The notes under the pieces are model-generated. The model worked only from the letters and a program-made list of their open reading frames with translations. It ran no database searches and had not been told where the DNA came from. A stretch of 64,000 nt of DNA from Sphingobacterium sp. UBA7855 (GTDB lineage: Bacteria > Bacteroidota > Bacteroidia > Sphingobacteriales > Sphingobacteriaceae), in the NCBI GenBank assembly GCA_002500745.1, contig DLST01000016.1, positions 142,638-206,637 on the forward strand, read 5' to 3'. Of this stretch, positions 20,525 to 61,698 are shown piece by piece; position 1 is the first letter of the stretch; every line of letters starts with the position of its first letter. Position numbers and translations under genes: made by a program.

Positions 20525-20532
20525 TATCTTTG
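20525..20532 (+). promoter_or_regulatory. TAnnTTTG box 4 nt before trmN6 (leaderless type)
   Basis: TATCTTTG is followed by GTCT and then the ATG. A TTTG at 20500-20503, 21 nt upstream, fits the -33 element. The expected transcription start coincides with the start codon. Confidence 0.65.
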
Positions 20533-20536
20533 GTCT

Positions 20537-21244
20537 ATGGCGTCGATATTTCGATTTAAAGAATTTGAGGTTGATCAGTCTGATTGTGCAATGAAGATTA
20601 ACACAGACGGCGTATTATTGGCTTCATTGTTGGAAGCGGGGACTTTAGGTCGAATTCTGGATATCGGTACAGGAACGGGAGTCATTGCATTGATGTTGGC
20701 TCAACGGTTTGCGCACAGTTGGGTAGAGGCTGTCGAGATGGACTCTTTAGCTGCTGCGATGGCAGATAAAAATTTTCGTCATTCCGTTTTTTGTGAACGG
20801 CTTAAGCTTCACGCCTGTGCCTTTCAGCGTATGGAAATGGCAGAGCCTTATGATTTGATTGTTTCGAATCCACCATTTTATACCGATTCACTCCATAATC
20901 CTGACGATCGAAAGAAGCTCGCGCGGCATGCTGACCTGGATTTTTTTGCTGAATTATTGGATTTCGCTTCTTTACGCTTATCGAATCAGGGGAAATTAAT
21001 TCTGATCGTTCCTACTGCTTTGGCAGATATACTGATGAAGATTTCAGCAGAGCACGCTCTTTATTGTTGTGCTGAAGTTCAGATAAGTTCTTTTGAAGGT
21101 GGATCCGTCATCCGTAAGATCATTACATTTGAACGGAAGCCTGTCGAATCGGTTGCTGTACGTGAGTTTGTTATATACGCAGGGAAGGGTATTTATTCAG
21201 CAGCTTATCGCAGCGTATTGGCCCCTTATTTTTTAGCTTTTTAG
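20537..21244 (+). CDS. trmN6: tRNA1(Val) (adenine(37)-N6)-methyltransferase
   Basis: This SAM-dependent methyltransferase of the TrmN6/YfiC family methylates A37 of tRNA(Val). The SAM-binding loop ILDIGTGTGVIALMLAQ is near residue 37, and the N6-adenine methylase motif NPPF follows in YDLIVSNPPFYTDS near residue 115. The 235-residue length is normal for the family. The start is supported by a promoter box 4 nt upstream. It is followed after 3 nt by a phosphodiesterase gene, which is likely co-transcribed. Confidence 0.9.
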   Translation: MASIFRFKEFEVDQSDCAMKINTDGVLLASLLEAGTLGRILDIGTGTGVIALMLAQRFAHSWVEAVEMDSLAAAMADKNFRHSVFCERLKLHACAFQRMEMAEPYDLIVSNPPFYTDSLHNPDDRKKLARHADLDFFAELLDFASLRLSNQGKLILIVPTALADILMKISAEHALYCCAEVQISSFEGGSVIRKIITFERKPVESVAVREFVIYAGKGIYSAAYRSVLAPYFLAF

Positions 21245-21247
21245 GTT

Positions 21248-21742
21248 ATGACAAAAATCGGATTACTTTCGGATACACATTCTTTTCTAGACGAAGCGGT
21301 ATTTACTCATTTTGCAGCCTGCGACGAGATCTGGCATGTCGGAGATTTTGGTGAAGGTGTTATTGCAGACCGGCTGGCTTCTTTTAAACCATTACGCGGC
21401 GTGTATGGAAATATTGATGGCCAGGATATTCGTCTGCAATTTCCCGAAGATTTGAGATTTAGATGTGAGGAAGTAGACGTTTTTATGACGCATATTGGTG
21501 GCTATCCAGGGAAATATGCTGCGCGTGTTAAGGGGGAATTAATGAAAAATCCTCCAAAGTTATTTATCACAGGACACTCACACATTTTAAAGGTGATGTT
21601 CGATCCCAAAATACAATGCCTTCACCTCAATCCTGGGGCAGCAGGAAAGCACGGCTGGCATAAAGTGCGCACATTGATGCGATTTGACATTCATGCGGAT
21701 AAAATTGAAAATCTTGAGGTAATTGAGCTGAATGGGCGTTAG
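21248..21742 (+). CDS. Metallophosphoesterase, YfcE/MJ0936 family
   Basis: This 164-residue calcineurin-like phosphoesterase has metal-binding motifs LLSDTHS, WHVGDFGE, GNIDG, THIGGYPGKY and TGHSHI in the expected order. Family members hydrolyse phosphodiesters such as model substrates or cyclic nucleotides; the natural substrate is often unknown. It is cytoplasmic, with no signal peptide. It lies 3 nt after trmN6, in the same unit. Confidence 0.9.
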   Translation: MTKIGLLSDTHSFLDEAVFTHFAACDEIWHVGDFGEGVIADRLASFKPLRGVYGNIDGQDIRLQFPEDLRFRCEEVDVFMTHIGGYPGKYAARVKGELMKNPPKLFITGHSHILKVMFDPKIQCLHLNPGAAGKHGWHKVRTLMRFDIHADKIENLEVIELNGR

Positions 21743-21911
21743 ACAAAGCGGCTACCATTTGTTTCCAGCAGAAGATCCACCGTGGTCTATTTATCTTGGT
21801 ATGTCACGTTTTGAAAAATAGATGCATCGTCTTTGTTCTATAGACAGTGTTGCTACGTATGCTCTTGGGGACCTCTGTTCAACAAGAGGATTTCTGCAGT
21901 AAATAGGGTTG

Positions 21912-22247
21912 TTATAATGAATCACGAACTTCAACAAGAAAGCTCTTTAGACGTTCAAGTGAGTCGATAACGCGCTGGTTTTCTTTTGCTTCTGATTTGT
22001 TGTCTCGCAGATAATCGCGTGCTCCTTGAAGCGTATAACCTTTGTTTTTAACCAGATTGAAAATAATTTTTAAATTGGCAATATCTTCCTGCGTAAAAAG
22101 GCGATTACCTTTTTTATTCTTTTTAGGTTGTAAAATATCAAACTCACGCTCATAAAAACGTATTTGGGAGGCGTTTACTTCGAACATCTCTGTAACTTCT
22201 CCCATAGTATAATACAATTTATTTATTTCACGCTCTTTGTACGGCAT
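21912..22247 (-). CDS. MerR family transcriptional regulator
   Basis: This 111-residue protein is essentially a MerR winged helix-turn-helix domain. YYTMGEVTEMFEVNASQIRF is the DNA-binding helix pair, and FTQEDIANLKIIFNLVKNKG the second part, followed by a short coiled C-terminus. No cysteine-based effector site is present. Bacteroidota genomes usually carry one such single-domain MerR protein. I see no partner gene that would tell its target. Confidence 0.9.
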   Translation of the reverse strand: MPYKEREINKLYYTMGEVTEMFEVNASQIRFYEREFDILQPKKNKKGNRLFTQEDIANLKIIFNLVKNKGYTLQGARDYLRDNKSEAKENQRVIDSLERLKSFLVEVRDSL

Positions 22248-22268
22248 ATCTTCACAATTAATCTATAG

Positions 22269-22276
22269 CAAACTTA
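22269..22276 (-). promoter_or_regulatory. TAnnTTTG -7 box of the merR-like gene
   Basis: TAAGTTTG on the minus strand lies 21 nt before the start codon and matches the Bacteroidota -7 consensus. Confidence 0.55.
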
Positions 22277-22436
22277 ATAAAAATTCCTATTCAAAAAGAA
22301 ATTTTTGAGATCATCTTATGTAGTGACTCAATGAAAGCGAACAAAGTAATCTAATCTATATGTAATCGCTAATTATTGTGGGTAAGCGTAAATTTTTATA
22401 AGTTTGATTCGTGTGAAAAGGGTTAAAGTATTAGGT

Positions 22437-22772
22437 ATGGTTATCGTTAGCAAATTTTGGACAAATTTATTTTCTTTTGGGAGAGCGAATGCAATTACTA
22501 TTTATCCCTTTATCTTTTTAAAAAGCACTTCTTTCAAATGCAACGAGAATCTGATCCGTCATGAACGTATACATTTGCGTCAAGCGCTTGAATTGGGTAT
22601 TCTCTTCTTTTATGTATGGTATCTTATTGAATTTGTCTTTCGCTTTATTCAATTGAAAGATTTTCATGGCGCTTATCTGCATATTTCTTTTGAGCGGGAA
22701 GCGTATGATAAGGAAGGTGAACCGGACTATTTGACCGGGAGAAGGCTATGGGCATTTTGGCAATATCTTTAG
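22437..22772 (+). CDS. Small HExxH protein, possible mini-metallopeptidase
   Basis: From the ATG at 22437 this is a 111-residue protein; in-frame TTG and GTG starts exist upstream at 22404 and 22413. It contains RHERIHLRQALELG, a zinc-peptidase HExxH pattern. A hydrophobic stretch (ILFFYVWYLIEFVFRFI) comes next, then SFEREAYDKEGE, whose Glu could be the third metal ligand, as in small M48-like enzymes. No other domain is present. I do not know a named family for it. The peptidase idea rests on the motif alone. Confidence 0.6.
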   Translation: MVIVSKFWTNLFSFGRANAITIYPFIFLKSTSFKCNENLIRHERIHLRQALELGILFFYVWYLIEFVFRFIQLKDFHGAYLHISFEREAYDKEGEPDYLTGRRLWAFWQYL

Positions 22773-22803
22773 GTAGGCCTATTTGATCGTGTTTAAAAAG
22801 AGA

Positions 22804-22837
22804 AAAGCGGTATCAAAAATAGTTTTGGTACCGCTTT
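22804..22837. terminator. Bidirectional terminator between the HExxH gene and accD
   Basis: A 15-bp stem with one G-T pair (22804-22818 with 22823-22837) closes an ATAG loop. It lies 31 nt after the plus-strand stop and 25 nt after the minus-strand accD stop. Confidence 0.8.
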
Positions 22838-22861
22838 CTGTTTTATCTTTTGGAGGATTAA

Positions 22862-23704
22862 TTATCCGACTAATTTAAGATAAGTAGCTACTTTGTTTTT
22901 TAACTGTCTACGGTCGACAATAAAATCCAAAAATCCATGCTCAAGAACGAATTCTGAAGTCTGGAATCCTTTTGGAAGATCCTTTTTAATTGTTTCTTTA
23001 ATGACACGTGGTCCTGCAAATCCGATTAATGCTCCCGGTTCTGCGATATTCACATCACCTAACATTGCGTAAGATGCTGTAACTCCTCCTGTGGTAGGGT
23101 CTGTCAATAAACAAACGTAAGGAAGTCCTGCCTTTGCCAATAATGCTAATTTAGCCGAAGTTTTAGCCATTTGCATCAATGAAAATGCAGCTTCCATCAT
23201 GCGTGCACCACCTGATTTTGAGATTAGCATAAATGGAATTTTATGCTCAATACAGTAATCTATCGAACGCGCGATTTTTTCACCAACGACAGATCCCATT
23301 GATCCGCCGATGAAACTAAAGTCCATACAAGCAATAACGATGTCTTGACCATTCATTTTTCCATGGCCAGAACGTAAAGCATCTTTAAGGCCTGTTTTGG
23401 CTTGGCTTTCTTTTAAACGTTCAGGGTATGGCTTTGAATCGAAAAATTTTAATGGATCACCAGAACTGAGATTGGGAAATAGCTCGGTAAATTCGTTATT
23501 GTCAAATAAAATTGAAAAATATTCTTTGGAGCCGATTCTTAAATGGTGGCCACAATATTGACAAACATAGTCATTTTCTACTTGTTCAAGATGCAATAAT
23601 GGCTTTTTGCAAGTGGGACATTTGTTCCACATGCCATCAGGTGCTTCTTTTTTATTAGCGGTAGCTGTGCTAATACCAGCTTTTTCTCTTTTAAACCAAC
23701 TCAT
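22862..23704 (-). CDS. accD: Acetyl-CoA carboxylase carboxyltransferase subunit beta
   Basis: AccD, with AccA, transfers the carboxyl group from carboxybiotin to acetyl-CoA to give malonyl-CoA for fatty acid synthesis. The 280 residues have an N-terminal four-cysteine zinc ribbon (CPTC and CQYC, about residues 29-54). A crotonase-like carboxyltransferase domain follows, with [20 protein letters not shown] and [19 protein letters not shown]. accA is not in this window. A TAAGTTTG box lies 21 nt before the start codon. Confidence 0.95.
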
Positions 23705-23725
23705 ACGATAGTTCTTATTCGATTA

Positions 23726-23733
23726 CAAACTTA
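23726..23733 (-). promoter_or_regulatory. TAnnTTTG -7 box of accD
   Basis: TAAGTTTG on the minus strand lies 21 nt before the accD start and matches the Bacteroidota -7 consensus. Confidence 0.55.
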
Positions 23734-23927
23734 TATAAATTTGAGTTTATATACAATTATAATTATGTTGAATGTATAGGCCAAGCGATGAAAACGCCTT
23801 GTCTAACAGGCTTTCTATTACTACTTGGACAGGGGCCAGCATTGGGATCTATAAGACATTGAGCTGATTATTAGATTGAAATTAATTGTGAAGTGGAAAG
23901 TCAGCCAAAAATTAGGGCACAAAAAAA

Positions 23928-24022
23928 GGGTAAGCTACTCCTATCGCACCGCTCAACCAAATACCCTTGCTTTGTTCCCAACCTGGGGGAGTCAATGGGA
24001 GCTGGTCGTAGAAGACTTACCC
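23928..24022 (-). ncRNA. ffs: Signal recognition particle RNA, bacterial small (4.5S) type
   Basis: Read on the minus strand, this 95-nt segment begins GGGUAAG and ends CUUACCC, which pair as the closing helix, with CUAC/GUAG continuing it. The apex holds the SRP helix 8 core: CAGG and AGCA face each other in the Ffh-binding internal loop. A UUG/CAA stem capped by a GGAA tetraloop completes it. A TACTTTTG box lies 4 nt before the 5' end, and a run of seven T follows the 3' end as terminator. The RNA binds Ffh and targets nascent membrane proteins. It sits in an otherwise gene-free gap of about 420 nt between accD and the MFS partner gene. Confidence 0.92.
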
Positions 24023-24026
24023 GTCA

Positions 24027-24034
24027 CAAAAGTA
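24027..24034 (-). promoter_or_regulatory. TAnnTTTG -7 box of the SRP RNA
   Basis: TACTTTTG on the minus strand is followed by TGAC and then the GGG at the predicted RNA 5' end. This gives an internal measure of the box-to-start distance of about 4 nt. Confidence 0.75.
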
Positions 24035-24127
24035 GAAAAAAAAACAGTTTTACGAAAGAAAAAATGCTATTTTATCTTATGCGATTGATTATCATGGTGA
24101 TAATTTGTTTGAAGTGATGAAAAACAC

Positions 24128-24355
24128 TTACATTTTGTTTTGATCATATTCTCCCAATAGGGAATAATACCCAAATAGGCCAAGTCCAATGGAGATAATC
24201 GGTGTCAAGATACCTAGGATAATGATTCCAAATACGACATCTTCCTGGTGACCAGTGGAAATCTTTGGCAGTGCCAGTTCAAAAACGGAAAAATAAGCGG
24301 TAAATAGCGCTAAAGTAATCCAGAGTATGCCAAGTAATTTTTTGATACTATTCAT
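24128..24355 (-). CDS. Small two-helix membrane protein, MFS partner
   Basis: This 75-residue protein has two hydrophobic helices (about residues 7-29 and 42-66) and a short charged tail. It starts 8 nt inside the end of the upstream MFS transporter gene, so the two are translationally coupled. Small membrane proteins paired with this MFS type recur in Bacteroidota (I recall the DUF6814 family, not verified). It may stabilise or modify the transporter; that is inference from the overlap. Confidence 0.8.
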   Translation of the reverse strand: MNSIKKLLGILWITLALFTAYFSVFELALPKISTGHQEDVVFGIIILGILTPIISIGLGLFGYYSLLGEYDQNKM

Positions 24356-25853
24356 GATTAGTGGGAGTTGATTTGTTATTGATATAAATACTGCCGATGA
24401 TAAAACATACCATTGCGATAATAATCGGATACCATAGTCCCGCCAGATAAAATTGTGGTGTCTGAGCTACTTCGGCTTTGGTAGTTAAGTAGGTGGATAC
24501 GGCGGGTAGGAGTCCACCGAATATTCCGTTTCCAACATGGTAAGGCAAAGACATGGATGTGTAGCGGATCTTTACCGGGAACAGTTCGACGAGAAAGGCT
24601 GCAATGGGTCCATATACCATGGTAATATAAATCACCTGAATAAAGATGAGGAGAATGAGGTAGATATAGTTCCAGTTGGCAATATGAACAGTTGTTGTGA
24701 CTGTTTGCTGGCCTTTTAGTTTGCCTGATTGGTGTATTGTTTTAGCGCGGGTGATTTCGGTTCCGTCGTCATATTGTGTTTTGACAACTGATTTTATTTC
24801 TGTCTTTTCTGTAACCGTAGGACTTTCGACTGTTTCATTCAGTTTGACTTTGTGCGCTGCATTGGAAAGTTGGTACATCGATTCATAGATTGGGCGATAG
24901 GTCAATACAGCGAGTAACATACCGCCTAGCATAATCCACTTTCGTCCAATTTTGTCACTGAGCCATCCAAATACGACAAAAAATGGTGTCCCTAAAAGTA
25001 GGGCTATCCCAAGAATGGTATCTGCCTGATCCGATTGTAGGTGCATCACTGTTTTCATGAAACTCATGGAATAGAACTGTCCGGTGTACCAAACAACACC
25101 TTGACCCATGGCGGCACCAAATAGTGCGAGCAGCACAAATTTGAGATTATATCGGTTGCCGAAACTTTCTTTTAAAGGATTTGTACTTGTTTTACCTTCT
25201 GCTTTAGCTTTGCTAAATTCGGGTGATTCCTTCATTTTTTTACGAATCAGGTAGGAGACATACACCATAACTAAAGAGAGTAAGAAAGGAACCCGCCAAC
25301 CCCAGATGTCAAATTGTGATTCGGTGAGTAAGCTTTTGGTCAGTAGGATGACGACTAGTGATATAAATAGGCCAAATGTCGCCGTTGTCTGTATCCAGGA
25401 GGTCCAGTATCCTCGTTGCCCTATAGGCGCATGCTCGGCCACGTAGGTGGCTGCGCCGCCATATTCTCCACCGAGGGCAAGACCTTGTAACAGGCGAAGG
25501 ATCAAAACGAGCAGGGGTGCCCAAAATCCGATGCTTTCGTAGCTTGGAATACAGCCTATGAGAAATGTTGCTCCGCCCATGAGCATTAAGGTAACCATAA
25601 ACGTATATTTTCGACCGATAATATCACCCAGTCGGCCAAAAAATAGTGCCCCAAATGGGCGAACGACAAATCCAGCCGCAAATGTGGCTAATGTGGAAAG
25701 GAAAGCAGCTGTTGGATTTTCCGCGGGGAAGAATTTGGTAGAAATTACGATCGATAGGCTCCCAAAGATAAAAAAGTCATACCATTCGATGAGTGTGCCC
25801 ATGGAGGATGCGCCGATGACTTTCCAGATACTTTTTGTGTTGTTTTCGTTCAT
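24348..25853 (-). CDS. MFS transporter, metabolite:H+ symporter type
   Basis: This 501-residue major facilitator protein has about twelve membrane helices. SSMGTLIEWYDFFIFGSL at the N-terminus and FGRLGDIIGRKYTF in the first loop are typical of the MHS family, which takes up dicarboxylates, betaine or similar solutes with protons. The second half has the matching FGWLSDKIGRKW loop. A hydrophilic Thr/Lys-rich insertion of about 60 residues (roughly 330-390) lies between helices of the second half. The substrate cannot be read from sequence. It overlaps the small partner gene by 8 nt. Confidence 0.9.
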   Translation of the reverse strand: MNENNTKSIWKVIGASSMGTLIEWYDFFIFGSLSIVISTKFFPAENPTAAFLSTLATFAAGFVVRPFGALFFGRLGDIIGRKYTFMVTLMLMGGATFLIGCIPSYESIGFWAPLLVLILRLLQGLALGGEYGGAATYVAEHAPIGQRGYWTSWIQTTATFGLFISLVVILLTKSLLTESQFDIWGWRVPFLLSLVMVYVSYLIRKKMKESPEFSKAKAEGKTSTNPLKESFGNRYNLKFVLLALFGAAMGQGVVWYTGQFYSMSFMKTVMHLQSDQADTILGIALLLGTPFFVVFGWLSDKIGRKWIMLGGMLLAVLTYRPIYESMYQLSNAAHKVKLNETVESPTVTEKTEIKSVVKTQYDDGTEITRAKTIHQSGKLKGQQTVTTTVHIANWNYIYLILLIFIQVIYITMVYGPIAAFLVELFPVKIRYTSMSLPYHVGNGIFGGLLPAVSTYLTTKAEVAQTPQFYLAGLWYPIIIAMVCFIIGSIYINNKSTPTNHE

Positions 25854-28856: not shown

Positions 28857-29999
28857 CTATTTCCAGCTTATTTTTTTCTTTTTTCTGCTGAACATACCAT
28901 TGATGCAAATATAGAAATAGTAGATGAAGTCTACCAAAGGCAACCACCAAATCAGTTCCTTTACTGCTAGTTTTTTATAGATGTTGTTAAATATTATCCA
29001 TTGTGCAATAAGCCGAAGGAGGTAGGCACTCAAAGGCACATACCAGTACATTGGGAAAGCAACTGTGGTCGCAATGACTGCTATGTAAAACAGGAATGCG
29101 GATAGCAGCTGGGTTCCCAGCATGCGTTGATGACGTTTTTTATAAATAGTAGATGCACCTGAATGCCTTGCTTTTTGTTTGTAGTAGCTTTTCCAAGTCG
29201 TTTTGGGTTCGGAATAGACAATGGATCCTGCCGACAGTACGATGTTGACATTGACCGGATTTGCATTTTGGTTGACAAATAGATCATCATCGCCCGATTT
29301 AATATGCATGTGGGCTGCAAACCCTTTGTTTCGAAAGAAGAGATCTTTTTTGTAAGCCATATTCCGACCGACCCCCATATAAGCATTCCCCTTCAGGGCA
29401 TAGGAGAAATAGCTCATGGCCGTATGACTGGTTTCAAATCGAATCAATAGATTTAATACCCCTTTTTTCTTAAAATATGGGGAATAGCCGAGTACAATTT
29501 CTGTTTCAGGTCTGAAAGCAGCTGCGACTTCTTTAAGCCATTGATTGGATTGTGGTGCACAGTCTGCATCGGTAAACACCAGTATCTCGTGTTTTGAAGC
29601 CTTGATACCCATACTTACGGCGAACTTCTTGCCATGTTTTAGGCGGATATGTTCTTTGATATCGACAATTTTTAAATTGGGATATTTTGCTTCGAATTCA
29701 TGCAATATCCAAGGTGTATTGTCTGTCGAAAAATCATTGACAACGATTACTTCAAAATTAGGATAATCTTGATGCATTATCTCCGGGAGGAATTGGGCGA
29801 TATTATCCTGTTCATTGTGTGCACAAATAATTACAGATAGCGGTGGGAATTCCGTTCCTTCCTGTATCGGTTCAATTTGATAACGGCTCAATTTACTATA
29901 TACAAATAAGATGTAGTATAATTGTATACATAGAAAAAGGCCCAATACTCCGAAAGCAATATAGGGGAGATTGGCCAAAAATACGTGAAGGTCAAGCAT
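28857..29999 (-). CDS. Family 2 glycosyltransferase, membrane-bound
   Basis: This 380-residue protein has an N-terminal membrane helix (about residues 13-33) and a GT-A domain with LSVIICAHNEQDNIAQFLP, VVNDFSTDNT and the metal-binding FTDADCAP. RHSGASTIYKKRHQ matches the QxxRH-like acceptor region, and two or three membrane helices lie at the C-terminus. This resembles membrane glycosyltransferases of cell-envelope polysaccharide synthesis. No polysaccharide cluster surrounds it. A TATCTTTG box sits 6 nt before the start codon. Confidence 0.9.
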   Translation of the reverse strand: MLDLHVFLANLPYIAFGVLGLFLCIQLYYILFVYSKLSRYQIEPIQEGTEFPPLSVIICAHNEQDNIAQFLPEIMHQDYPNFEVIVVNDFSTDNTPWILHEFEAKYPNLKIVDIKEHIRLKHGKKFAVSMGIKASKHEILVFTDADCAPQSNQWLKEVAAAFRPETEIVLGYSPYFKKKGVLNLLIRFETSHTAMSYFSYALKGNAYMGVGRNMAYKKDLFFRNKGFAAHMHIKSGDDDLFVNQNANPVNVNIVLSAGSIVYSEPKTTWKSYYKQKARHSGASTIYKKRHQRMLGTQLLSAFLFYIAVIATTVAFPMYWYVPLSAYLLRLIAQWIIFNNIYKKLAVKELIWWLPLVDFIYYFYICINGMFSRKKKKISWK

Positions 30000-30005: not shown

Positions 30006-30013
30006 CAAAGATA
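30006..30013 (-). promoter_or_regulatory. TAnnTTTG box 6 nt before the glycosyltransferase gene
   Basis: TATCTTTG on the minus strand is followed by TGAGCT and the ATG. The transcript would begin within about two bases of the start codon. Confidence 0.6.
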
Positions 30014-48128: not shown

Positions 48129-48294
48129 TATTTTTATTGGGTTAATAGTGCCAATTATAAGTTTTATTACAGAATATATATATGGTAATGCTTATTTTTG
48201 GAGGTGTAACTTCATGGAAAAATTGTAGCCCACTGCAAAGTGAGGAGCACGGTAGATAAAGCGAAATAACAAACAAAAACTAAATTTGAAGAAG

Positions 48295-48870
48295 ATGCTA
48301 GAATTAGTGTTTGCAACCAATAATGCCCATAAATTGGAAGAGGTCCAAGCGATCGTGGGGGATGCTTTTGTCATTAAGAGTTTAAACGATATTGACTGTC
48401 AGGATGATATTCCAGAAACAGGTATAACATTTGAGGAAAATGCCCAGCAGAAAACGGACTATTTGGTGAACAAATATGGTCTTTACTGTTTTGGAGATGA
48501 CTCAGGCTTAGAAATTGATGCATTAAATGGTGAGCCTGGAGTTTATTCAGCACGTTATTCAGGATCGAGGGATATGGAAAAGAATATTGATCTTGTCCTG
48601 AAAAATTTAGGCGATAACCCCAATCGTACAGCGAGATTCAAAACAGTTATTTCACTATATTTGAATGAGCAGCAGCACTTCTTTGAGGGAAGTATTGAAG
48701 GTAAAATTATTGCGGAACGTAGAGGTGTTGATGGTTTTGGTTATGATCCCATCTTTATCCCTAATGGCTATGACAAGACTTTTGCGGAGATGACTGCCCT
48801 TGAAAAAAACAGCATAAGCCATCGTGCGATTGCTGTGGGCAAACTTGCTGCATATTTAAGAACGAAGTAA
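48295..48870 (+). CDS. rdgB: Non-canonical purine NTP pyrophosphatase (RdgB/HAM1)
   Basis: This enzyme hydrolyses dITP, XTP and related nucleotides and keeps them out of DNA. From the ATG at 48295 the 191 residues begin LELVFATNNAHKLEEVQAIV, the nucleotide-binding start of the family. GDDSGLEIDALNGEPGVYSARY with the catalytic Asp, GVDGFGYDPIFIP and SHRAIAVGKL follow. An in-frame TTG at 48286 would add three residues and is unlikely. The length is normal. A strong terminator lies 98 nt downstream. Confidence 0.94.
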   Translation: MLELVFATNNAHKLEEVQAIVGDAFVIKSLNDIDCQDDIPETGITFEENAQQKTDYLVNKYGLYCFGDDSGLEIDALNGEPGVYSARYSGSRDMEKNIDLVLKNLGDNPNRTARFKTVISLYLNEQQHFFEGSIEGKIIAERRGVDGFGYDPIFIPNGYDKTFAEMTALEKNSISHRAIAVGKLAAYLRTK

Positions 48871-49029: not shown

Positions 49030-51558
49030 TTATTTAGTTTTTACTTTTGTCTGTGTACTATCTTGCGCCGATATTATCGCCGATTTATTTGTTGTTGAGT
49101 CGGACTTTGCAGTTGCTTTGTCGGCTGCAGTCTTTACATTTGTTTTCGTACTGTTAGCTTTACCTGTTGTTTCCGATGGCTTAGCTGTTTTGGTGGCAGC
49201 GCTTGTTTTATTGTTTGAAGCGTCCACCGCTTTTTCTTTCTCGAGCGTTTCGTTCCCATCAGCTTTCTTGGCGGCACCCTTTTGAGGGGTCGTTGATTTA
49301 TCGCCTTTTTTAATAGACTTCATTGTCCCTGATTCCTCACCTTCTGGCGCAGTAGGAACCGTAAACGAAGCTTTTGAAAGGTCTCTTTTTCGATTTAATA
49401 AATCGTCTTTTGACTTAGGCCGGTCTTCAGGTCGCCAAGTGAAATTCGGAAGAAATTCCTTATCGGCCGTGACTTCAGCAATAGGATAGACCTTGCCGTC
49501 TACTTTCCGGATGGATACATATTCCTTCAGCTTATTATCTTCCATCAAGATCTTGAAGCGGCTACTTCGATCGTGGACAAGCTCTGTGGTTACATTGGTC
49601 TTTTCATCAATATTGTAGAATATATTTTCAGCGTTGCCATCAACAAACAGACGTTCCATACGGTTATTGGTGAAAAAGCTGGTAATCTTCCGACCTTTAA
49701 TCTGATTGAATTTTAATGAGTCGCTTGTTGCGTTTACCATGAAAGCGTTACCGACAAGTAGTGAATTGTCCAATTTTTGATTCTTTACTTGTAGGAATAT
49801 GGTATCTCCAGAGATTTGTGAGTTTTCGGCCCACATCATTGGTTTTCCCATTAGTCTGAACATGGAATCTTGCATACCATAATACATAGAATCTGCTACG
49901 GCTTGGAGGTCAGATTTAAATAGTCGCGCATTATAGTAGGCTTTTATAATCCGTGTTTTGGCCGTATCCTGTGTTAGAGAATCTCGTTTACCCTGTTGAG
50001 CATTTTTTAAAGCTGCTCCCATCAGTTTATCGGATTCACCGCCTTTCGGGATGATCGCTTTTTTACGCAATAAACTATCAGCCTTAAGATTTTTTTCAAT
50101 TTCTATCTTGTTTTGATCACCGACAATAGCTGGTGTTTTTTTTGCTGCAATCGGTTTCTTATTTGTCAGGGTATCTTGTACTTTTTTAATGTTCTTTTCA
50201 AGAACCGGTTTGCTGTTGTCTTTTTTAGGCAAACTGTCGATTCCCTTGTGAATGCCATCTTTTATGTTTTCTAATGTACCTGTGGAATCAACTGTTGTTG
50301 AGCTGGAATCTTGGTCACCATAATCGACCTCATTGTCGTCCTCAATCGCCCCACCTTCACGATTCAATTTAAAATCTCTTGCAATATAATCTCGGCGAAA
50401 TATCATCTGTGAGAAGAGCGTGTCGGCTGTCATAAAAACAGAATCTACCTGTGAATCAGTCTTAAGTGGTTTATTATTGCCGCTTTTGATATTTTTACCT
50501 GGACGTTCCTTTTCTTCTAGAGCAACTTGCGATGTAGTTTTATTTGATTTGAGCTTATCTTTCTGTCTATCTTTATCAATTTCCTTTAACTCTTTAGTTT
50601 CTTTTTTGAGCTCTTGCCCTGTTTTTTGTGGAGCAGGAGACAAAGAAGATACAGAATCTTTTTGTGTTGAATCTTTTTTGACAACCGAAATGATCAACGG
50701 CTTATCAGTCATTGTGATGGATTCGTTCCTTCCATTGTACAAGCCAAATCCTCCGTAGGCATAAAATTTGTCTAAGGTGTCAACAAAGACCACATTTTTT
50801 ACGGCTTTACCGATTCCCACTTGTCTATCGTAGAATAGGCTGTCTCCCTTAAGAAACTTTGTCCCTTCTGTGTAGAGGTTGTTTTTAGAGAAATAAGCCT
50901 GGCCCGTTGCCATATGGTATCGGCCTTTTTCAGTATATAAGTTTTCCCCTTTATTTCCCTTGATATTGGTAGGCCCATAGAAATCAGTAATGCGTGTATT
51001 ACCATTATATTTCATGGAATCCGTGTAGACTTTTACATTGGTTGATCGGACCACAACTTTTTGATTGAAATAAGATTCCCCTGTATTTTCGAAATAAGTA
51101 GCTCGCTGGCTTGTAATTGTATCGCTTCCTGACAGAATACGCCCACCACTGTAATAATTACCGATTTTACTTCGCATATTATAGACAAGGTGGTCGGTCG
51201 TCAGTATGGAGCCGTTGGTGCTGACCATGCGAACTGCTCCTGTAAGTGTAGCGAGTTGCATTGCTGCTTCATAATGTAATTTATTGGAGAATATCTGTGT
51301 ACCGTCGGGTTGAGTAATGATTACGTTTCCAAAGGCTTCAAAAAATTGTCTGCCAATGTTGTCTTTATGTAAATAGCCACTATCTGAGGATAGCGTTGAA
51401 CCCACATGTTCATAGACTGGACGGTAAAACAAAATATTGCCGTCTTTTCCAGTAATAATATGGGATGATGAAAGAAGCTTTAGTTCATCCTGTTTCTGAG
51501 CTTGGACCGACAAGCCAGTTAAAATAAATACAATAAGTGTATAAATGTATTGTTTCAC
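49030..51558 (-). CDS. OstA-like (LptA/LptD N-domain) protein with long low-complexity tail
   Basis: This protein of about 842 residues has a signal peptide (KQYIYTLIVFILTGLSVQAQ). Residues ~25-290 form repeated beta-strand segments of the OstA/LptA type (FSNKLHYEAAMQLATLTGAV, TTDHLVYNMRSKIGNYYSGG), which shuttle lipopolysaccharide across the periplasm. A Lys/Ser/Asp-rich linker comes next. A second OstA-like block covers about 510-690, and a Thr/Lys/Ala-rich tail ends the protein. I chose the GTG at 51558 because a TATTTTTG box lies 5 nt before it. A GTG at 51603 lies upstream of that promoter. Confidence 0.88.
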   Translation of the reverse strand: MKQYIYTLIVFILTGLSVQAQKQDELKLLSSSHIITGKDGNILFYRPVYEHVGSTLSSDSGYLHKDNIGRQFFEAFGNVIITQPDGTQIFSNKLHYEAAMQLATLTGAVRMVSTNGSILTTDHLVYNMRSKIGNYYSGGRILSGSDTITSQRATYFENTGESYFNQKVVVRSTNVKVYTDSMKYNGNTRITDFYGPTNIKGNKGENLYTEKGRYHMATGQAYFSKNNLYTEGTKFLKGDSLFYDRQVGIGKAVKNVVFVDTLDKFYAYGGFGLYNGRNESITMTDKPLIISVVKKDSTQKDSVSSLSPAPQKTGQELKKETKELKEIDKDRQKDKLKSNKTTSQVALEEKERPGKNIKSGNNKPLKTDSQVDSVFMTADTLFSQMIFRRDYIARDFKLNREGGAIEDDNEVDYGDQDSSSTTVDSTGTLENIKDGIHKGIDSLPKKDNSKPVLEKNIKKVQDTLTNKKPIAAKKTPAIVGDQNKIEIEKNLKADSLLRKKAIIPKGGESDKLMGAALKNAQQGKRDSLTQDTAKTRIIKAYYNARLFKSDLQAVADSMYYGMQDSMFRLMGKPMMWAENSQISGDTIFLQVKNQKLDNSLLVGNAFMVNATSDSLKFNQIKGRKITSFFTNNRMERLFVDGNAENIFYNIDEKTNVTTELVHDRSSRFKILMEDNKLKEYVSIRKVDGKVYPIAEVTADKEFLPNFTWRPEDRPKSKDDLLNRKRDLSKASFTVPTAPEGEESGTMKSIKKGDKSTTPQKGAAKKADGNETLEKEKAVDASNNKTSAATKTAKPSETTGKANSTKTNVKTAADKATAKSDSTTNKSAIISAQDSTQTKVKTK

Positions 51559-51563: not shown

Positions 51564-51571
51564 CAAAAATA
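51564..51571 (-). promoter_or_regulatory. TAnnTTTG box 5 nt before the OstA-like gene
   Basis: TATTTTTG on the minus strand is followed by CCCAT and the GTG start at 51558. It decides between two possible GTG starts. Confidence 0.55.
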
Positions 51572-51645: not shown

Positions 51646-51653
51646 TAACTTTG
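51646..51653 (+). promoter_or_regulatory. TAnnTTTG box 4 nt before tilS (leaderless type)
   Basis: TAACTTTG is followed by TTCT and the tilS ATG. It lies about 75 nt from the divergent OstA-like promoter. Confidence 0.65.
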
Positions 51654-51657: not shown

Positions 51658-52989
51658 ATGAATGTGCTGGAAAGACTAAAGGGCTATATTGAAAAGGAGC
51701 ATTTGTTGATGCCCCATCATAAGGTATTGCTTACAGTGAGTGGAGGAAAGGATTCGATGCTTATGGCACATCTGTTTGTAAAAGCGGGGTATACCCTTGC
51801 TATTGCACATTGTAATTTTAAATTGAGGGGTACGGATTCTGATGCGGACGAAGCATTGGTTAGAACGTTCGCCACGGAAAATAATGTCCCGATATTTGTG
51901 CGGCATTTTGATACAAAAACCTATGCGAAAGAGCGACAGATTTCGATTCAAATGGCTGCCCGTGAACTTCGTTACGCCTGGTTTGAGAAATTGCGACATG
52001 AAATGGACTTCGATCGAATTGCAGTTGCTCATCATCTGAATGATCATATCGAAACGGTTCTATTAAACCTTTGTCGCGGAACTGGTCTTCAGGGACTTCA
52101 GGGTATTCTCCCTGTCCGGGAGCGCATCATTCGACCCTTACTTTTCCTAAAGGCCAGCGAAATTGAACATTTTGTTAATATGTACGGTATTTCCTATCGA
52201 GATGATCAATCCAATTTTTCAACAAAATATGCCCGAAATAAAATACGGATTGATATTATTCCGCATTTTCAAAAGCTTCAGCCAGATTTCGAAATGGTCT
52301 TCGAGCAGAATATCCAACATTTTAAAGAGTCTTATCAACTGCTGCAGCAATTTGTAGAGCCTATTCGCAAACTGCTTTTTTTTCCTACTGGCGCTGGGTG
52401 GGAGGTTCGGAAAGAAGATTTAGAACCTTATCTTGATAATCTACCACTGCTCTATGAGCTATTCTCGCCCTTTAATTTCTCAAAGGCGATATTAAGTGAT
52501 CTCCAACAAGCATGGGTAAGAGAATCGGGGCGTATTTTTCAATCTGATTGCTACCATATGCTCTTGGACAGAAATGAACTTTTTATTCGAGAGAAGGAAT
52601 TTGTTTCTGCTGATGAGGGGTTGATTACCTCCGAAACTTCAACCGTGGAGTGGAAGCAGTATTGCTTTCATGCTGAGGTTTCTACAGATGTAACTATTGT
52701 CCAAGCGACAGAGGTTGCGAAGCTGGAGTATGATTTATTGGTTTTTCCTCTCACGATTCGATCGTGGAAAGTTGGCGATAGCTTTTATCCTTTAGGTATG
52801 GAAGGCCGTAAGAAGCTGAGCGATTTTTTTATCAATAAGAAGATCAGCTTATTTGAAAAAGATAATATTCCGATCGTGGTGAATGGAAACGGAGATATTC
52901 TTTGGGTAGCAAATTATCGGATAGACAATCGTTATAAAATTACCTCCAATACAAAAAAAGTCCTTACTTTAGTTTGCAGAACTGATTAG
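51658..52989 (+). CDS. tilS: tRNA(Ile)-lysidine synthetase
   Basis: TilS attaches lysine to C34 of tRNA(Ile)-CAU so that it reads AUA codons; it is essential. The 443 residues have the ATP pyrophosphatase loop SGGKDS near residue 29. The N-type PP-loop domain includes IAHCNFKLRGTDSDAD, VAHHLNDHIETVLLNL and RPLLFLKASEI, and a C-terminal TilS domain contains SWKVGDSFYPLGMEGRKKLS. The length and motifs are normal. The start is fixed by a promoter box 4 nt upstream. Confidence 0.95.
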   Translation: MNVLERLKGYIEKEHLLMPHHKVLLTVSGGKDSMLMAHLFVKAGYTLAIAHCNFKLRGTDSDADEALVRTFATENNVPIFVRHFDTKTYAKERQISIQMAARELRYAWFEKLRHEMDFDRIAVAHHLNDHIETVLLNLCRGTGLQGLQGILPVRERIIRPLLFLKASEIEHFVNMYGISYRDDQSNFSTKYARNKIRIDIIPHFQKLQPDFEMVFEQNIQHFKESYQLLQQFVEPIRKLLFFPTGAGWEVRKEDLEPYLDNLPLLYELFSPFNFSKAILSDLQQAWVRESGRIFQSDCYHMLLDRNELFIREKEFVSADEGLITSETSTVEWKQYCFHAEVSTDVTIVQATEVAKLEYDLLVFPLTIRSWKVGDSFYPLGMEGRKKLSDFFINKKISLFEKDNIPIVVNGNGDILWVANYRIDNRYKITSNTKKVLTLVCRTD

Positions 52990-54099: not shown

Positions 54100-54107
54100 T
54101 ATCTTTG
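54100..54107 (+). promoter_or_regulatory. TAnnTTTG box 4 nt before recF (leaderless type)
   Basis: TATCTTTG is followed by TGCC and the recF ATG. No clear -33 TTG is seen at the expected distance. Confidence 0.6.
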
Positions 54108-54111: not shown

Positions 54112-55215
54112 ATGTGGCTCAAGCAACTTTCTGTTCTAAATTTCAAAAATTACGCGGAATCATCTTTGGAATTCCTTCCTGAGGTAAATGCATTTACAGG
54201 TGATAATGGGGTTGGAAAAACCAATCTTTTGGATGCGATTCATTATTTATCCCTTTGTAAAAGTTATTTCAATCCGATCGATTCACAGCACATCAAGTCA
54301 GGTAACGACTGGTTTATGGTACAGGGAGAGTTTAATAAAGAATCAACCAGTGATTTTATATCTTGTAGCCTAAAAAAAAATCAAAAGAAGCAGTTTAAAA
54401 AAAACAAGAAGGATTATCCTAGATTGGCTGATCATATCGGTTTGTTTCCTTTGGTGATGATTTCCCCAAACGATAGTATCATCGTCACAGATGGGAGTGA
54501 AGAACGTAGAAAGTTTGTGGATAATGTAATTTCCCAAACAGACAATAAATATTTAGATACGCTGATTATTTATAATAAGTTTTTAGCTCAACGTAACAGC
54601 CTTCTTAAACAAGCGCGTCAAACTAGTGTACTTGATCTTGGACTAATTGAAATTCTTAATTTTCAACTTGAAGAAGTTGGAAATATTATTTTTCAAAAAA
54701 GAAGATCCTTTATGGAGGAGTTTCAGCCTGAGTTTGACCGACATTATCAGTTCCTCACTGAAGACGCGGAGTCCGTACAATTGCACTATGAATCGCCTTT
54801 AATGACTGATTCTTTTTTACGTATTTTGGAAAAGAACTTGGAGCGTGACCGTATGTTAGAACGTACCACGCAGGGTATACATAAGGATGATCTAATATTT
54901 ACAATTCACGGTGGAATGCCTTTGAAAAAATTTGGTTCTCAAGGGCAACAAAAATCTTTTTTAATTGCGCTAAAACTTGCTCAATATTCTTATTTGCAAC
55001 ATAAAAAGGGTTTTAAGCCTCTGCTTCTTTTGGATGATATATTCGATAAACTAGATGATCGTAGAACACACAAATTGATGCAAATGGTTTCCGAAGATGA
55101 TTTTGGACAGATTTTCCTAACCGATACAGATTCAAAAAGAATTGAGCGAATATTTGAGGAAATCAACCGTCCTGTTCGTATATTTGATATTGTAGGAGGA
55201 CAAGTCAATGTATAA
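54112..55215 (+). CDS. recF: DNA replication and repair protein RecF
   Basis: RecF loads RecA onto gapped DNA with RecO and RecR. The 367 residues show the SMC-like ATPase parts: Walker A TGDNGVGKTNLLDAIHYLS near residue 29, signature FGSQGQQKSFLIALKLAQ near 280 and Walker B PLLLLDDIFDKLDD near 305. The start is supported by a promoter box 4 nt upstream. The next gene (DUF721) overlaps its end by 8 nt, a pairing also found near replication origins in other phyla. No dnaA, dnaN or gyrB is in the window. Confidence 0.95.
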   Translation: MWLKQLSVLNFKNYAESSLEFLPEVNAFTGDNGVGKTNLLDAIHYLSLCKSYFNPIDSQHIKSGNDWFMVQGEFNKESTSDFISCSLKKNQKKQFKKNKKDYPRLADHIGLFPLVMISPNDSIIVTDGSEERRKFVDNVISQTDNKYLDTLIIYNKFLAQRNSLLKQARQTSVLDLGLIEILNFQLEEVGNIIFQKRRSFMEEFQPEFDRHYQFLTEDAESVQLHYESPLMTDSFLRILEKNLERDRMLERTTQGIHKDDLIFTIHGGMPLKKFGSQGQQKSFLIALKLAQYSYLQHKKGFKPLLLLDDIFDKLDDRRTHKLMQMVSEDDFGQIFLTDTDSKRIERIFEEINRPVRIFDIVGGQVNV

Positions 55216-55534: not shown

Positions 55535-55545
55535 AATCTCTTTTC

Positions 55546-57046: not shown

Positions 57047-57087
57047 GTTTTTGTTGGTAAGTATGTTTATGGGTGTAGTTTATGCAC

Positions 57088-57118
57088 AAATTACCAACAA
57101 TGCTGCTGTTGGTAATTT
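57088..57118. repeat. 12-bp perfect inverted repeat in the candidate origin
   Basis: AAATTACCAACA (57088-57099) and its complement (57107-57118) flank ATGCTGC, directly after a DnaA box. Confidence 0.8.
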
Positions 57119-57160
57119 TGCAAATAGTTGATCAGGGGAATTTCTATTGCAAGTTGGCTT

Positions 57161-57781: not shown

Positions 57782-57884
57782 TTTCTATTTTTGTTAAGTA
57801 CCTGAATTAGGTTTAATCTCAAGCCCTATTAAAGAATGCCAATGGGGCAATGGTTACTATCTGTATTCAGATACGCTATATCTA

Positions 57885-57927
57885 AAAGAACAACAGCCAA
57901 AATATTTTGTTTTGGCTGTTGTTCTTT
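57885..57927 (-). terminator. Terminator after asnS
   Basis: An 18-bp perfect stem (57885-57902 with 57910-57927) has a TATTTTG loop. It lies 4 nt after the minus-strand asnS stop. Confidence 0.85.
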
Positions 57928-57930
57928 AGA

Positions 57931-59376
57931 TTAAAATTCTGCGTTTTTCGGTGTGCGTGGGAACGGAATGACATCGCGGATATTGGTCATTCCCGTCGTG
58001 AATAAAACAAGGCGTTCGAACCCTACGCCGAATCCGGAATGTGGTACCGATCCAAAACGGCGCGTATCCAAGAACCACTCCATTTCTTCTGCAAGAATAC
58101 CAACTTCAGCCATGCGATCGAGTAAGCGATCAAGATTCTCTTCACGCTGCGAGCCACCGACCATTTCACCAATGCCTGGGAAAAGAATATCCATGGCGCG
58201 GACTGTATTTCTTCCTTGTGCGTCCGGCTCATTTTGCTTCATATAGAAGGACTTGATTTCGCGCGGATAGTCGGTTAAGATAACAGGTTTCTTGAAGTGT
58301 TTTTCAACCAAATAACGCTCGTGTTCCGATTGTAAATCAGCTCCCCAATCATCAATTAAATACTTGAATTGTTTCTTTTGGTTTGGTTTGCTACGCTTTA
58401 AGATTTCAACAGCATCGGTATAGGTAACGCGTTCAAAATCGTTTGTTAATACGAAGTTTAATTTCTCAACAAGGTTTAATTCTGAGCGTTCTGCAGCAGG
58501 TTTGGATTTTTCCTCTTCCAGCAAACGATTTTTGAGGAACTCGATTTCTTCTGGACAAGTTTCCAAAGCGTATTTGATGACATATTTCAGCAAAGCCTCG
58601 GCCAGATCCATATTATCTTCTAATTCATAGAAAGCCATTTCGGGTTCGATCATCCAAAATTCGGCTAAGTGACGTGTTGTATTTGAGTTTTCCGCTCTAA
58701 ATGTTGGCCCGAACGTATAGATGTTTCCAAATGCCATGGCGCCAAGCTCACCTTCTAATTGGCCCGATACCGTAAGGTTGGTTGATTTTCCAAAGAAGTC
58801 TTCTTTGAATTCAATATCTCCATTTTCGTTGCGTGGCGGATTTTTTAAATCCAAGGTTGTAACCTGAAACATTTCTCCAGCACCTTCGGCATCCGAACCT
58901 GTGATGATCGGTGTGTGCATGTAAACAAAGTCGTTTTCCTGAAAAAACTTGTGTACCGCAAATGCTAATGCATTACGCACTTTGAATACGGCATTGAATG
59001 TCCCGGTACGGAAACGTAAATGTGCAATTTCACGTAAAAATTCTAAGCTATGCTTTTTGGGTTGTAACGGATATTTTTCGGGGTCAGAGTCGCCGATAAT
59101 GCTTACCTCAGTAGCTTTAACCTCAACTTTTTGACCTTTACCTAATGATGCTACCAATTGACCTTTTACGCGGACTGCTGCTCCAGTGGTGATACGCTTT
59201 AAGATATCCTCAGGTGTATTTTCAAAATCGACAACTGCTTGAATATTATTGATTGACGAACCGTCATTGATTGCTATAAACTGATTGTTACGGAAAGTTC
59301 TGACCCAACCTTTAACAACGACCTCTTTGCCAAATTCTGTGGCATTCAATAGTTCCTTTATTCTTGTGTGTTCCAT
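57931..59376 (-). CDS. asnS: Asparaginyl-tRNA synthetase
   Basis: AsnRS charges tRNA(Asn). From the ATG at 59376 ([20 protein letters not shown]) it has 481 residues: an N-terminal OB-fold anticodon domain ([19 protein letters not shown]), and class II motif 2 in [20 protein letters not shown]. Motif 3 is [20 protein letters not shown], and DIIPFPRTP-like [10 protein letters not shown] ends it. An in-frame upstream start would add 18 residues that do not fit the family. A TATTTTTG box lies about 51 nt upstream. Confidence 0.95.
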
Positions 59377-59427
59377 CTTAATTTTTGGAGATTGACTTGT
59401 AAAAGATGCTTTGTTAAAAAAGCAATA

Positions 59428-59435
59428 CAAAAATA
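59428..59435 (-). promoter_or_regulatory. TAnnTTTG box of asnS
   Basis: TATTTTTG on the minus strand lies 51 nt before the asnS ATG. It supports the start at 59376. The rest of the 305-bp gap to sucC holds only the sucC terminator. Confidence 0.45.
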
Positions 59436-59623
59436 CGCTATTCTGTTGGTTTATTGGCTATAAATGTTGATTTAATTCAATTCACGATGGGGTATTACAG
59501 CTCATAGGGCAAATATATTATTGAAATCACAACAGGTGGAGTTAGACGGTTAGGAAGTGAAATATATTTCATTTCTAAATGAAACATAACTTTGATAACG
59601 GGGGCTTCATGAGATGCGGTGTA

Positions 59624-59667
59624 ATAACAAAAAGCGCGAATTAAAAATAATTCGCGCTTTTTGTTAT
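59624..59667 (-). terminator. Terminator after sucC
   Basis: A perfect 20-bp stem (59624-59643 with 59648-59667) closes an AAAA loop, 14 nt after the minus-strand sucC stop. It is the longest perfect hairpin in the window. Confidence 0.9.
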
Positions 59668-59681
59668 GATGATTCAAGGAA

Positions 59682-60875
59682 TTATCCTTTCAATACTTTC
59701 GTTACTAGTTCAGCAGCTTCTTTCAATAAAATTGCAGAATAGACTTGTAAACCGGATTCATCAATTAATTTTTTCGCTTCTTCAGCATTCGTACCTTGAA
59801 GGCGAACAATAATAGGAACTGGAATGTTTCCAATTTCGCTATACGCATCAATTACACCTTGAGCAACACGGTCGCAACGAACAATACCACCGAAGATATT
59901 AATTAAGATTGCTTTTACGTTAGGGTCTTTCAAAATGATATTGAAACCAGCTTTTACAGTTTCAGCATTAGCCGTACCACCTACATCTAAGAAGTTGGCA
60001 GGTTCACCGCCGGCTATTTTGATGATATCCATGGTAGCCATTGCCAAACCAGCGCCATTTACCATACAACCTACGTTACCATCTAATTTAACGTAGTTTA
60101 GGTTTGATTCACCAGCTTCAACTTCTGTTGGATCCTCCTCAGTTACATCGCGCATAGCTGCGTAATCTGCGTGACGGTATAAAGCGTTTTCATCAAGATT
60201 TACTTTCGCATCAACGGCTAAGATCTTGTCGTCAGAAGTTTTCAAGACAGGATTGATCTCAAACATAGAAGAGTCTGTAGAATCGTATGCTTTGTAAAGG
60301 GCAGCAACAAATTTTACCATTTCTTTGTGCGCAGCACCAGAAAGACCAAGATTGAAGGCAATTTTACGTGCTTGGAATCCTTGTAAGCCTACTTTTGGAT
60401 CGATTTCTTCTTTGAAAATCAAGTGCGGTGTTTTTTCTGCAACTTCTTCGATATCCATACCACCTTCCGTAGAGTACATAACGATGTTACGTCCTTTAGC
60501 ACGGTCCAATAATACAGACATGTAGAATTCTTTTGTTTCGCTCTCGCCTGGATAGTAAACGTCTTGAGCGATCAAAACTTTGTTTACTTTTTTACCTTCA
60601 GGTCCAGTTTGAGGCGTTACTAATTGCATACCAATGATGTCAGTTGCTCTTTGTTTGACTTCATCTAAGTTCTTAGCTAACTTGACACCACCACCTTTAC
60701 CACGGCCACCAGCGTGAATTTGAGCTTTGACAACAACCCAATCAGAGTTGTAGTCTTCTTTCATTTTTTTGGCCGCTTCCACAGCTTGCTCTGGAGTATC
60801 TGCTACGATACCTTCCTGTACGCGCACACCAAAGCTCTTTAGTATTTGTTTTCCTTGATATTCGTGAATGTTCAT
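59682..60875 (-). CDS. sucC: Succinyl-CoA ligase (ADP-forming) subunit beta
   Basis: SucC, with SucD, makes succinate and ATP from succinyl-CoA in the TCA cycle. From the ATG at 60875 ([17 protein letters not shown]) the 397 residues show the ATP-grasp domain ([39 protein letters not shown]). The CoA-ligase domain has [16 protein letters not shown] and [17 protein letters not shown]. sucD is not adjacent. A TATTTTTG box lies only 3 nt before the start. Confidence 0.95.
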
Positions 60876-60878
60876 TTG

Positions 60879-60886
60879 CAAAAATA
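60879..60886 (-). promoter_or_regulatory. TAnnTTTG box 3 nt before sucC
   Basis: TATTTTTG on the minus strand is followed by CAA and ATG, so the transcript would start at or just inside the start codon. Chance is possible because the region is T-rich. Confidence 0.45.
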
Positions 60887-61032
60887 TTTGGCGTAAAAAT
60901 ATAATTTTTTGGGGGATAAGACAAGTGATAAATCGCTCTTTTATCTATTTTTTGACATTTAGACAAAATAAAATGGCTGGAATTGAGAAATAACAGCTTA
61001 TTTATTCAAACTCGTTGTATCGTAAATTTAGT

Positions 61033-61040
61033 TATCTTTG
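61033..61040 (+). promoter_or_regulatory. TAnnTTTG box 4 nt before the lolD-like gene (leaderless type)
   Basis: TATCTTTG is followed by CCCT and ATGATG. The transcription start should fall on the first ATG at 61045. It rules out an in-frame start at 61015, upstream of the promoter. Confidence 0.6.
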
Positions 61041-61044
61041 CCCT

Positions 61045-61698
61045 ATGATGTTACATGCCAAAGGAATTCACAAAGCTTATGGGTCATTACCGATTTTGAA
61101 AGGTGTTGATATCGCTGTTGAAAAGGGCGAAATCGTTAGTATTGTAGGTGCATCGGGGGCTGGAAAAAGTACCTTGCTGCACATTATCGGTACCTTAGAT
61201 AAACCCGATCAGGGATCGGTTTTGATCAATGGTGTAGATGTCCAAAAATTGAGTGCTAAAAAGTTAAGTGCTTTTCGCAACGAACATATCGGTTTTGTAT
61301 TTCAATTTCACCATTTGTTGCCTGAATTCACTGCTTTAGAAAATGTATGTATTCCTGCTTTTATTCATGGAAAGGGAAGACTTGAGGCAGAGGAAAAGGC
61401 GAAAAAATTGTTGGAGTTATTGGGAGTTTCCCATCGTATTGGCCATAAGCCTGCTGAAATGTCTGGTGGTGAACAGCAACGTGTCTCTGTGGCTCGTGCG
61501 CTGATTAATGATCCTTCCATTATTTTGGCAGATGAACCTTCCGGCAATCTCGACTCTGAAAATGCAGCCGCTTTACATCAATTGTTTTTTGATCTTAGAG
61601 ATAAATTTCAGCAAACATTTATTATCGTTACGCACAATGAGGAACTTGCTCGCATTTCGGATCGAACGATTCATATGCGTGATGGTGTAGTCGTATAA
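61045..61698 (+). CDS. LolD/MacB-type ABC transporter ATP-binding protein
   Basis: From the ATG at 61045 this 217-residue protein is an ABC ATPase of the LolD/FtsE/MacB group. Walker A is [11 protein letters not shown], the Q-loop is [17 protein letters not shown], the signature is [15 protein letters not shown] (Met in place of Leu) and Walker B is [12 protein letters not shown]. The best guess is the ATPase that powers lipoprotein release from the inner membrane. The membrane subunits are not adjacent, so a different MacB-like partner is possible. Confidence 0.88.

Follow-up and report, generated by a model that had tools for sequence, protein, structure and literature searches.

The question raised by the stretch of DNA studied here is whether transcription of a set of its genes begins at the start codon itself. 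The stretch (the window) comprises 64,000 nucleotides (nt) of Sphingobacterium sp. UBA7855 (GenBank assembly GCA_002500745.1, contig DLST01000016.1, forward strand positions 142,638 to 206,637), and its RecF shares 93-96% identity with RecF of S. multivorum, S. siyangense and their near relatives, which places it in Sphingobacterium. A preliminary description of the window noted the motif TAnnTTTG a few nt before the start codons of trmN6, tilS, recF, a lolD-like gene, an OstA-like protein gene, a glycosyltransferase gene and sucC, and proposed that all seven are leaderless. For the first six genes it is highly probable that they are leaderless by way of a -7 promoter element placed at the start codon.

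All seven boxes were found exactly where the preliminary description had put them, spacing being counted as the nt between the end of TAnnTTTG and the start codon. Four lie on the plus strand, each 4 nt upstream of an ATG: TATCTTTG at 20525..20532 precedes a trmN6-like methyltransferase gene (20537..21244), TAACTTTG at 51646..51653 precedes tilS (51658..52989), and TATCTTTG recurs at 54100..54107 before recF (54112..55215) and at 61033..61040 before the gene of a LolD-like ABC transporter ATPase (61045..61698). The other three are on the minus strand. TATTTTTG at 51564..51571 stands 5 nt upstream of the GTG (51558) of the OstA-like protein gene (49030..51558), from which this gene is predicted to be leaderless. 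TATCTTTG at 30006..30013 stands 6 nt upstream of the ATG (29999) of a GT2 glycosyltransferase gene (28857..29999), for which a leaderless transcript or a leader of 1-2 nt is predicted, and TATTTTTG at 60879..60886, probably not a main promoter (see below), stands 3 nt upstream of the ATG (60875) of sucC (59682..60875). The gene names match NCBIfam or Pfam models: TilS (TIGR02432), RecF (TIGR00611) and SucC (NF001913) score above the cut-offs, the OstA-like protein matches PF13100 and the glycosyltransferase PF00535, and LolD and TrmN score under the equivalog cut-offs (TIGR02211, 275.5 bits against 307.75; NF047853, 154 bits against 350).

The number of boxes in the window is only weakly raised, with 97 occurrences of TAnnTTTG compared to 74.8 +/- 8.4 in shuffled sequence and at least 97 in 2 of 100 shuffles; the distinctive feature is their placement. 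A box at 3-6 nt was found for seven of the 48 genes called in the window (sucC, lolD, recF, rdgB, trmN6, tilS and the glycosyltransferase gene), ostA falling outside this count because its GTG was not taken as a start by the gene caller. Among 16,251 internal ATGs in a sample of the nearest comparison genome, 40 carry a box at this distance, and at this background rate 0.118 cases are expected among 48 genes. Chance is ruled out as the source of the set by the seven genes observed (Poisson P = 6e-11) and also by the five that are left when sucC and rdgB are taken out (5/48, P = 2e-7).

An internal ruler for the distance between box and transcript start is provided by the small signal recognition particle (SRP) RNA gene on the minus strand (23924..24022; Rfam RF04183, Bacteroidales_small_SRP, 100.2 bits at a gathering threshold of 55.2). 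Its box, TACTTTTG at 24027..24034, is followed by TGAC and then by GGGTAAG, which opens the terminal helix at 24022, so that the spacing is again 4 nt. The box is kept in 20/20 related genomes. Its distance to the first GGG is 4 nt in 15 of them, 3 or 5 nt in three and 9 nt in one; the remaining relative has AGG in the 4-nt register. The ruler proposed in the preliminary description is thus valid in the window and, judged from these alignments, the distance from box to RNA start is about 4 nt. It is by way of this ruler only that the distance of ~4-5 nt from box to start belonging to a -7 promoter was found in the window. The Rfam match itself is drawn over 23924-24029, with its 5' edge 7 nt before the helix start and inside the conserved box. 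Since box and 4-nt register recur in the relatives, this edge is read as a model-boundary effect, and the 5' boundary of the RF04183 model seems to include promoter sequence.

Published transcript maps agree with the ruler. Here and below, the literature was drawn on in part (PMC9723704, PMC7366714, PMC6847099, PMC3155529, PMC3160421, PMC5397173 and PMC10783764), and what is said of it holds for those parts. In Flavobacterium psychrophilum TAnnTTTG was mapped at -12 to -5 (PMC9723704), and in F. johnsoniae the box was found 4-5 nt from the start site, with a much less evident -33 TTTG element (PMC6847099). A box at -12 to -5 means that a spacing of 4 nt between box and ATG puts the 5' end on the A of the ATG, as the preliminary description had predicted and as the SRP ruler also indicates. 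Its identification of the motif matches these maps as well, and by sequence the boxes of the window are the Bacteroidota -7 (sigma-ABfr) element.

Conservation of the geometry was observed directly in orthologous loci, the rows of which are partly non-independent, certain genomes being present twice. The box of tilS was found in 24/24 rows, at 4 nt in 21 and at 5 nt in three, and even at 49% protein identity (S. litopenaei, Parapedobacter) this geometry persists, much of the remaining upstream sequence having changed. For ostA the spacing is exactly 5 nt in all 19 rows with an alignable N-terminus, down to 48% identity (five rows could not be placed), and the start codon is GTG in 18 of these and ATG in one; GTG as a leaderless start may merit study. 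Spacing between box and start is constrained in both tilS and ostA. The lolD box is at 4 nt in 15/18 rows, the other three having TAACTTCG (two rows) or TACCTTCG (one row). For trmN6 a box at 3-6 nt was found in 10 of 12 Sphingobacterium rows and in 0/4 rows examined from other genera, for which the start codon is assigned with less certainty. The glycosyltransferase spacing of 6 nt is kept in the four loci fetched (4/4), the start in the most distant one (71% identity) being extrapolated over 11 residues. Within recF orthologues of at least 80% identity, the box lies at 3-6 nt in 22/23 rows.

These alignments also bear on the possibility that the promoters are real while the true start codons lie downstream, or that the transcripts begin a few bases earlier, so that short leaders result. 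The lolD-like gene has a second in-frame ATG at 61048 (ATGATG), the glycosyltransferase spacing of 6 nt implies a leader of 1-2 nt, and the spacing of 3 nt at sucC would put a start site at 4 nt inside the ATG, all of which fit such short leaders. However, start codon and box are conserved together (ATG of tilS in 24/24 rows and of trmN6 in 12/12 rows of the same genus, the ostA start in 19/19), and RecF and SucC match their family models from residue 1 (NF010680 and NF001913, respectively). The spacing distribution in the nearest comparison genome (G001), which has 78% of sampled 31-mers in common with the window, likewise speaks against short leaders as a class. In a sample of 1.2 Mb (60 stretches, loci L065-L124, 22% of the genome) 736 genes were called, and boxes were found at 0-2 nt in three, at 3-8 nt in 21 (nine at exactly 4 nt), at 9-14 nt in only one, at 15-40 nt in 70 and at 41-71 nt in 35. 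The directly observed shape is a sharp peak at 4 nt, a near-empty valley at 9-14 nt and a leadered hump from 15 nt. One box in the valley compares to 16 expected from the density at 15-40 nt (P = 2e-6); against the density at 41-71 nt the deficit is also seen (P = 0.009). This suggests that leaders of ~5-10 nt are avoided in G001, and short leaders as the general explanation of the close boxes are considered unlikely.

The peak at short spacing that the preliminary description had predicted genome-wide was indeed found at 4 nt (9/736 genes), and in a pattern count over the whole of G001 160 boxes lie 4 nt before any ATG compared to 87 at 10 nt. It could be argued that the close TTTG box is a translation signal, contacted by the ribosome or by ribosomal protein S1 within a longer leader, and not a promoter. 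Shine-Dalgarno sequences are absent from Bacteroidota, which rely on upstream signals of an A-rich or Kozak-like kind instead (PMC6847099 among the sources, each in part), and in G089, one of the uncultured genomes treated below, 24/131 operon-inner genes have a close box. A translation signal is difficult to reconcile, however, with its presence at non-coding genes, i.e. the SRP RNA in all 20 relatives and five of six tRNA genes inspected in G089, or with a spacing peak that matches the measured distance between box and start site (PMC9723704; PMC6847099). Furthermore, close boxes favour genes that lead operons in three of the four genomes in which this was analyzed: in G001 they were found at 21/550 leading and 0/186 inner genes (p = 0.004), and the bias is also present in G119 (p = 0.004) and G089 (p = 0.029) but absent in G116 (p = 0.47). 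Taken together, a role as translation signal instead of promoter is very improbable. In G001, close-box genes (nine compared) could not be told apart from leadered ones by a base signature of a pyrimidine at -1 and A at -3.

The leaderless reading of the six genes is therefore preferred, and the 5' ends and initiation route deduced from it would be as follows. The primary sigma factor would initiate from the -7 element next to the start codon, transcription beginning on that codon's first base or 1-2 nt before it, and the ribosome would take the 5'-terminal AUG (GUG in ostA) directly. In Sphingobacterium this mode would coexist with ordinary leaders of ~11 nt or longer, leaders of ~5-10 nt being nearly absent.

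Several observations weigh against this reading. Below 80% identity, recF has a box at 3-6 nt in only 4/39 rows (3/25 at 60-80% identity and 1/14 below 60%), the others having a box at 7-14 nt, a longer spacing or none; as judged from these rows, recF keeps its spacing only in close kin and the geometry is readily lost or gained outside them. For sucC the 3-nt TAnnTTTG was found in 13/18 rows and a TAnnTTTA 17-19 nt upstream of the start in 18/18. A proposed eighth member, rdgB (Ham1), was rejected as it has a close box in just 5/20 orthologue rows and, in eight others, a box at 15-52 nt. The three maps consulted for the phylum treat leaderless mRNA as rare, as far as the parts consulted go, with a leaderless share of 5.5% in F. 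psychrophilum (PMC9723704), ~3.7% of mRNAs with a 5' untranslated region shorter than 10 nt in Bacteroides thetaiotaomicron and 13% with one not above 10 nt in F. johnsoniae (PMC6847099). Finally, gene starts were taken from a simple in-house codon-usage caller, with 71% coverage of the G001 sample.

In the window sequence, rdgB carries TAAATTTG 6 nt upstream of its ATG (48281-48295), and the region upstream of sucC (60876-60935, minus strand) holds the conserved TAnnTTTA, a possible variant -7 element. For sucC, and for this gene only, it is fairly likely that the close box is an incidental AT-rich sequence and that transcription starts from the variant element ~18 nt upstream, so that the leader would be ~14 nt long. 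TAnnTTTA is the better conserved of the two, and a start site 4 nt past the close box would fall inside the ATG. As a class, TAnnTTTA shows only a weak positional preference in G001 and may therefore promote transcription poorly; both elements could serve. By these comparisons sucC is probably leadered and its close box is probably not the main promoter, so that, of the seven genes put forward as leaderless, six are retained.

How common leaderless genes are depends on where they are counted. The preliminary description called them common, which agrees with the window (a box at 3-6 nt before 7/48 genes) more than with the G001 sample (14/736; p = 1e-4, or p = 0.004 with 5/48), though the stretch had been picked by a reader who had spotted the boxes. 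Close boxes at 3-8 nt were found for 2.9% of the G001 genes and make up 17% (21/127) of the exact boxes within 3-71 nt, figures that differ in what they measure from the published leaderless shares. In G001 the leaderless geometry is a minority mode. It had also been suggested that leaderless genes are often informational, which was not established: RNA-modification or tRNA-ligase genes number 5/20 in the leaderless set and 1/20 among leadered controls (p = 0.18), in a comparison that covered 20 of the 21 leaderless genes and in which the two sets had unequal E-value cut-offs (1e-20 and 1e-10 versus 1e-30), rsmI-like and queD-like genes among the five score under curated cut-offs and a control RNA helicase went uncounted.

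The same box is found at start codons far more often in some uncultured Bacteroidia. Among 119 Bacteroidia genomes the count at 4 nt exceeds that at 10 nt in 116 (totals 11,918 versus 6,070, counted before any ATG whether a gene start or not), and G001 places 48th by 4-nt excess per Mb. Very large excesses were found in two families, f41 (223 versus 23 in G089, 178 versus 20 in G052 and 161 versus 26 in G119) and f38 (356 versus 119, 269 versus 84 and 288 versus 118), followed by genomes G057, G030 and G028. In the order to which G089 belongs, 12/12 genomes of f41 lie well above a reversed-pattern control, and the one genome (77% complete) of the sister family f57 is without a large excess (50 versus 39). 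Of the exact boxes within 3-71 nt of called starts, 65-76% lie at 3-8 nt in f41 (71/93 in G089, 26/40 in G119; loci L125, L136-L155 and L244-L253) and 44-47% in f38 (19/43 in G049, 34/72 in G116; loci L126-L135 and L254-L263; sample GC content 34-37%), and 19-25% of the genes called in these four genomes have a box at 3-8 nt. Eight tRNA genes were found in G089, and in five of the six inspected the box stands 7-12 nt upstream of the mature 5' end, while the sixth gene is the second of a tandem; TAnnTTTG is therefore a promoter in G089 too. All eight G089 RecF relatives of at least 48% identity that have organism names are called 'Bacteroidia bacterium', the lineage being uncultured. From these counts leaderless mRNA looks like the default in f41.

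Conservation of individual close boxes within f41 is suggestive, the samples being small: a shared close box was found in 5/29 orthologue pairs of G089 and G119 (p = 0.016), in 3/22 of G089 and G116 (p = 0.62; all three match one G116 start), in 0/9 of G049 and G116 and in 0/38 of G089 and G001. Actinobacteria and Thermus are not known to have bS21. Loss of this protein was considered as a cause of the leaderless-rich state and rejected, bS21 being present in 58/60 genomes and in 11/12 of f41. The anti-Shine-Dalgarno core CCTCC is intact in G089, the sole leaderless-rich genome in which the 16S end was seen; the 16S search found the gene in 5/18 genomes, with none of the nine leaderless-rich ones among them, and a further search gave fragments. 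A single origin of the leaderless-rich state is not favoured by a RecF tree of 36 rows (eight leaderless-rich), which needs four changes, at least two of them forced by starred branches, but has long branches and mostly weak support. Overall it is likely, from the genomes compared, that leaderless mRNA is the default or near-default in f41, and probably also in f38, f46, f17 and f19, with the -7 element kept, bS21 kept in nearly every genome searched and the anti-Shine-Dalgarno core intact in the one seen, that leaders in Sphingobacterium are bimodal (none, or ~11 nt and longer), and that in the leaderless-rich lineages most transcription units would then have their start codon dictated by where the promoter lies.

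In a phylum without Shine-Dalgarno signals, leaderless mRNA would thus be a low-level conserved option in Sphingobacterium and is apparently dominant in some uncultured relatives. This makes a phylum-wide question testable, namely what permits a switch from leadered to leaderless mRNA with the promoter element unchanged, and start-codon calling in leaderless-rich genomes can draw on the box, with a ruler calibrated on SRP RNA and tRNAs. Wide leaderless use in Bacteroidetes has already been suggested in print: in four species, AT-richness around -20 to -10 was read as possible leaderless promoters by authors who state that many leaderless mRNAs had been reported for the phylum and who could not separate this bias from ribosomal protein S1 sites (PMC5397173). 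In the parts consulted, that study deals neither with the spacing of the -7 box nor with differences between lineages. Among the titles listed by a literature search that lacked most subscription journals there was none on leaderless-dominant Bacteroidia or on a lineage-wide switch such as that of f41 and f38, and among those listed for the genus Sphingobacterium there was no leaderless study. With sucC and the claim on informational genes set aside, the window case has stronger support than the preliminary description could give it, and it belongs to a minority mode that is already known.

Compared to the primary-sigma promoters described for Bacteroidota (-7 TAnnTTTG, -33 TTTG), the promoters of the window show the exact -7 consensus and, by the SRP ruler, the distance of 4-5 nt to the start site but, unlike the usual ones, their -7 element abuts the start codon. 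The leaderless mRNAs of F. psychrophilum and B. thetaiotaomicron, two members of this phylum, are likewise a minority, as far as the parts of these maps consulted show; those of the window, unlike the mapped ones, are predicted from sequence, and they are deeply conserved in tilS and ostA. By prediction, on average 39% of genes in Deinococcus-Thermus and 19% in Actinobacteria are leaderless; in the same survey, consulted in part, leaderless genes were reported for one out of 37 genomes of Bacteroidetes/Chlorobi, and its method is stated to detect Pribnow-like boxes only (PMC3160421). Family f41 appears to resemble Deinococcus-Thermus and Actinobacteria in that most of its recognisable start-linked promoters lie at the start codon, and it differs from them in the -7 motif that it uses.

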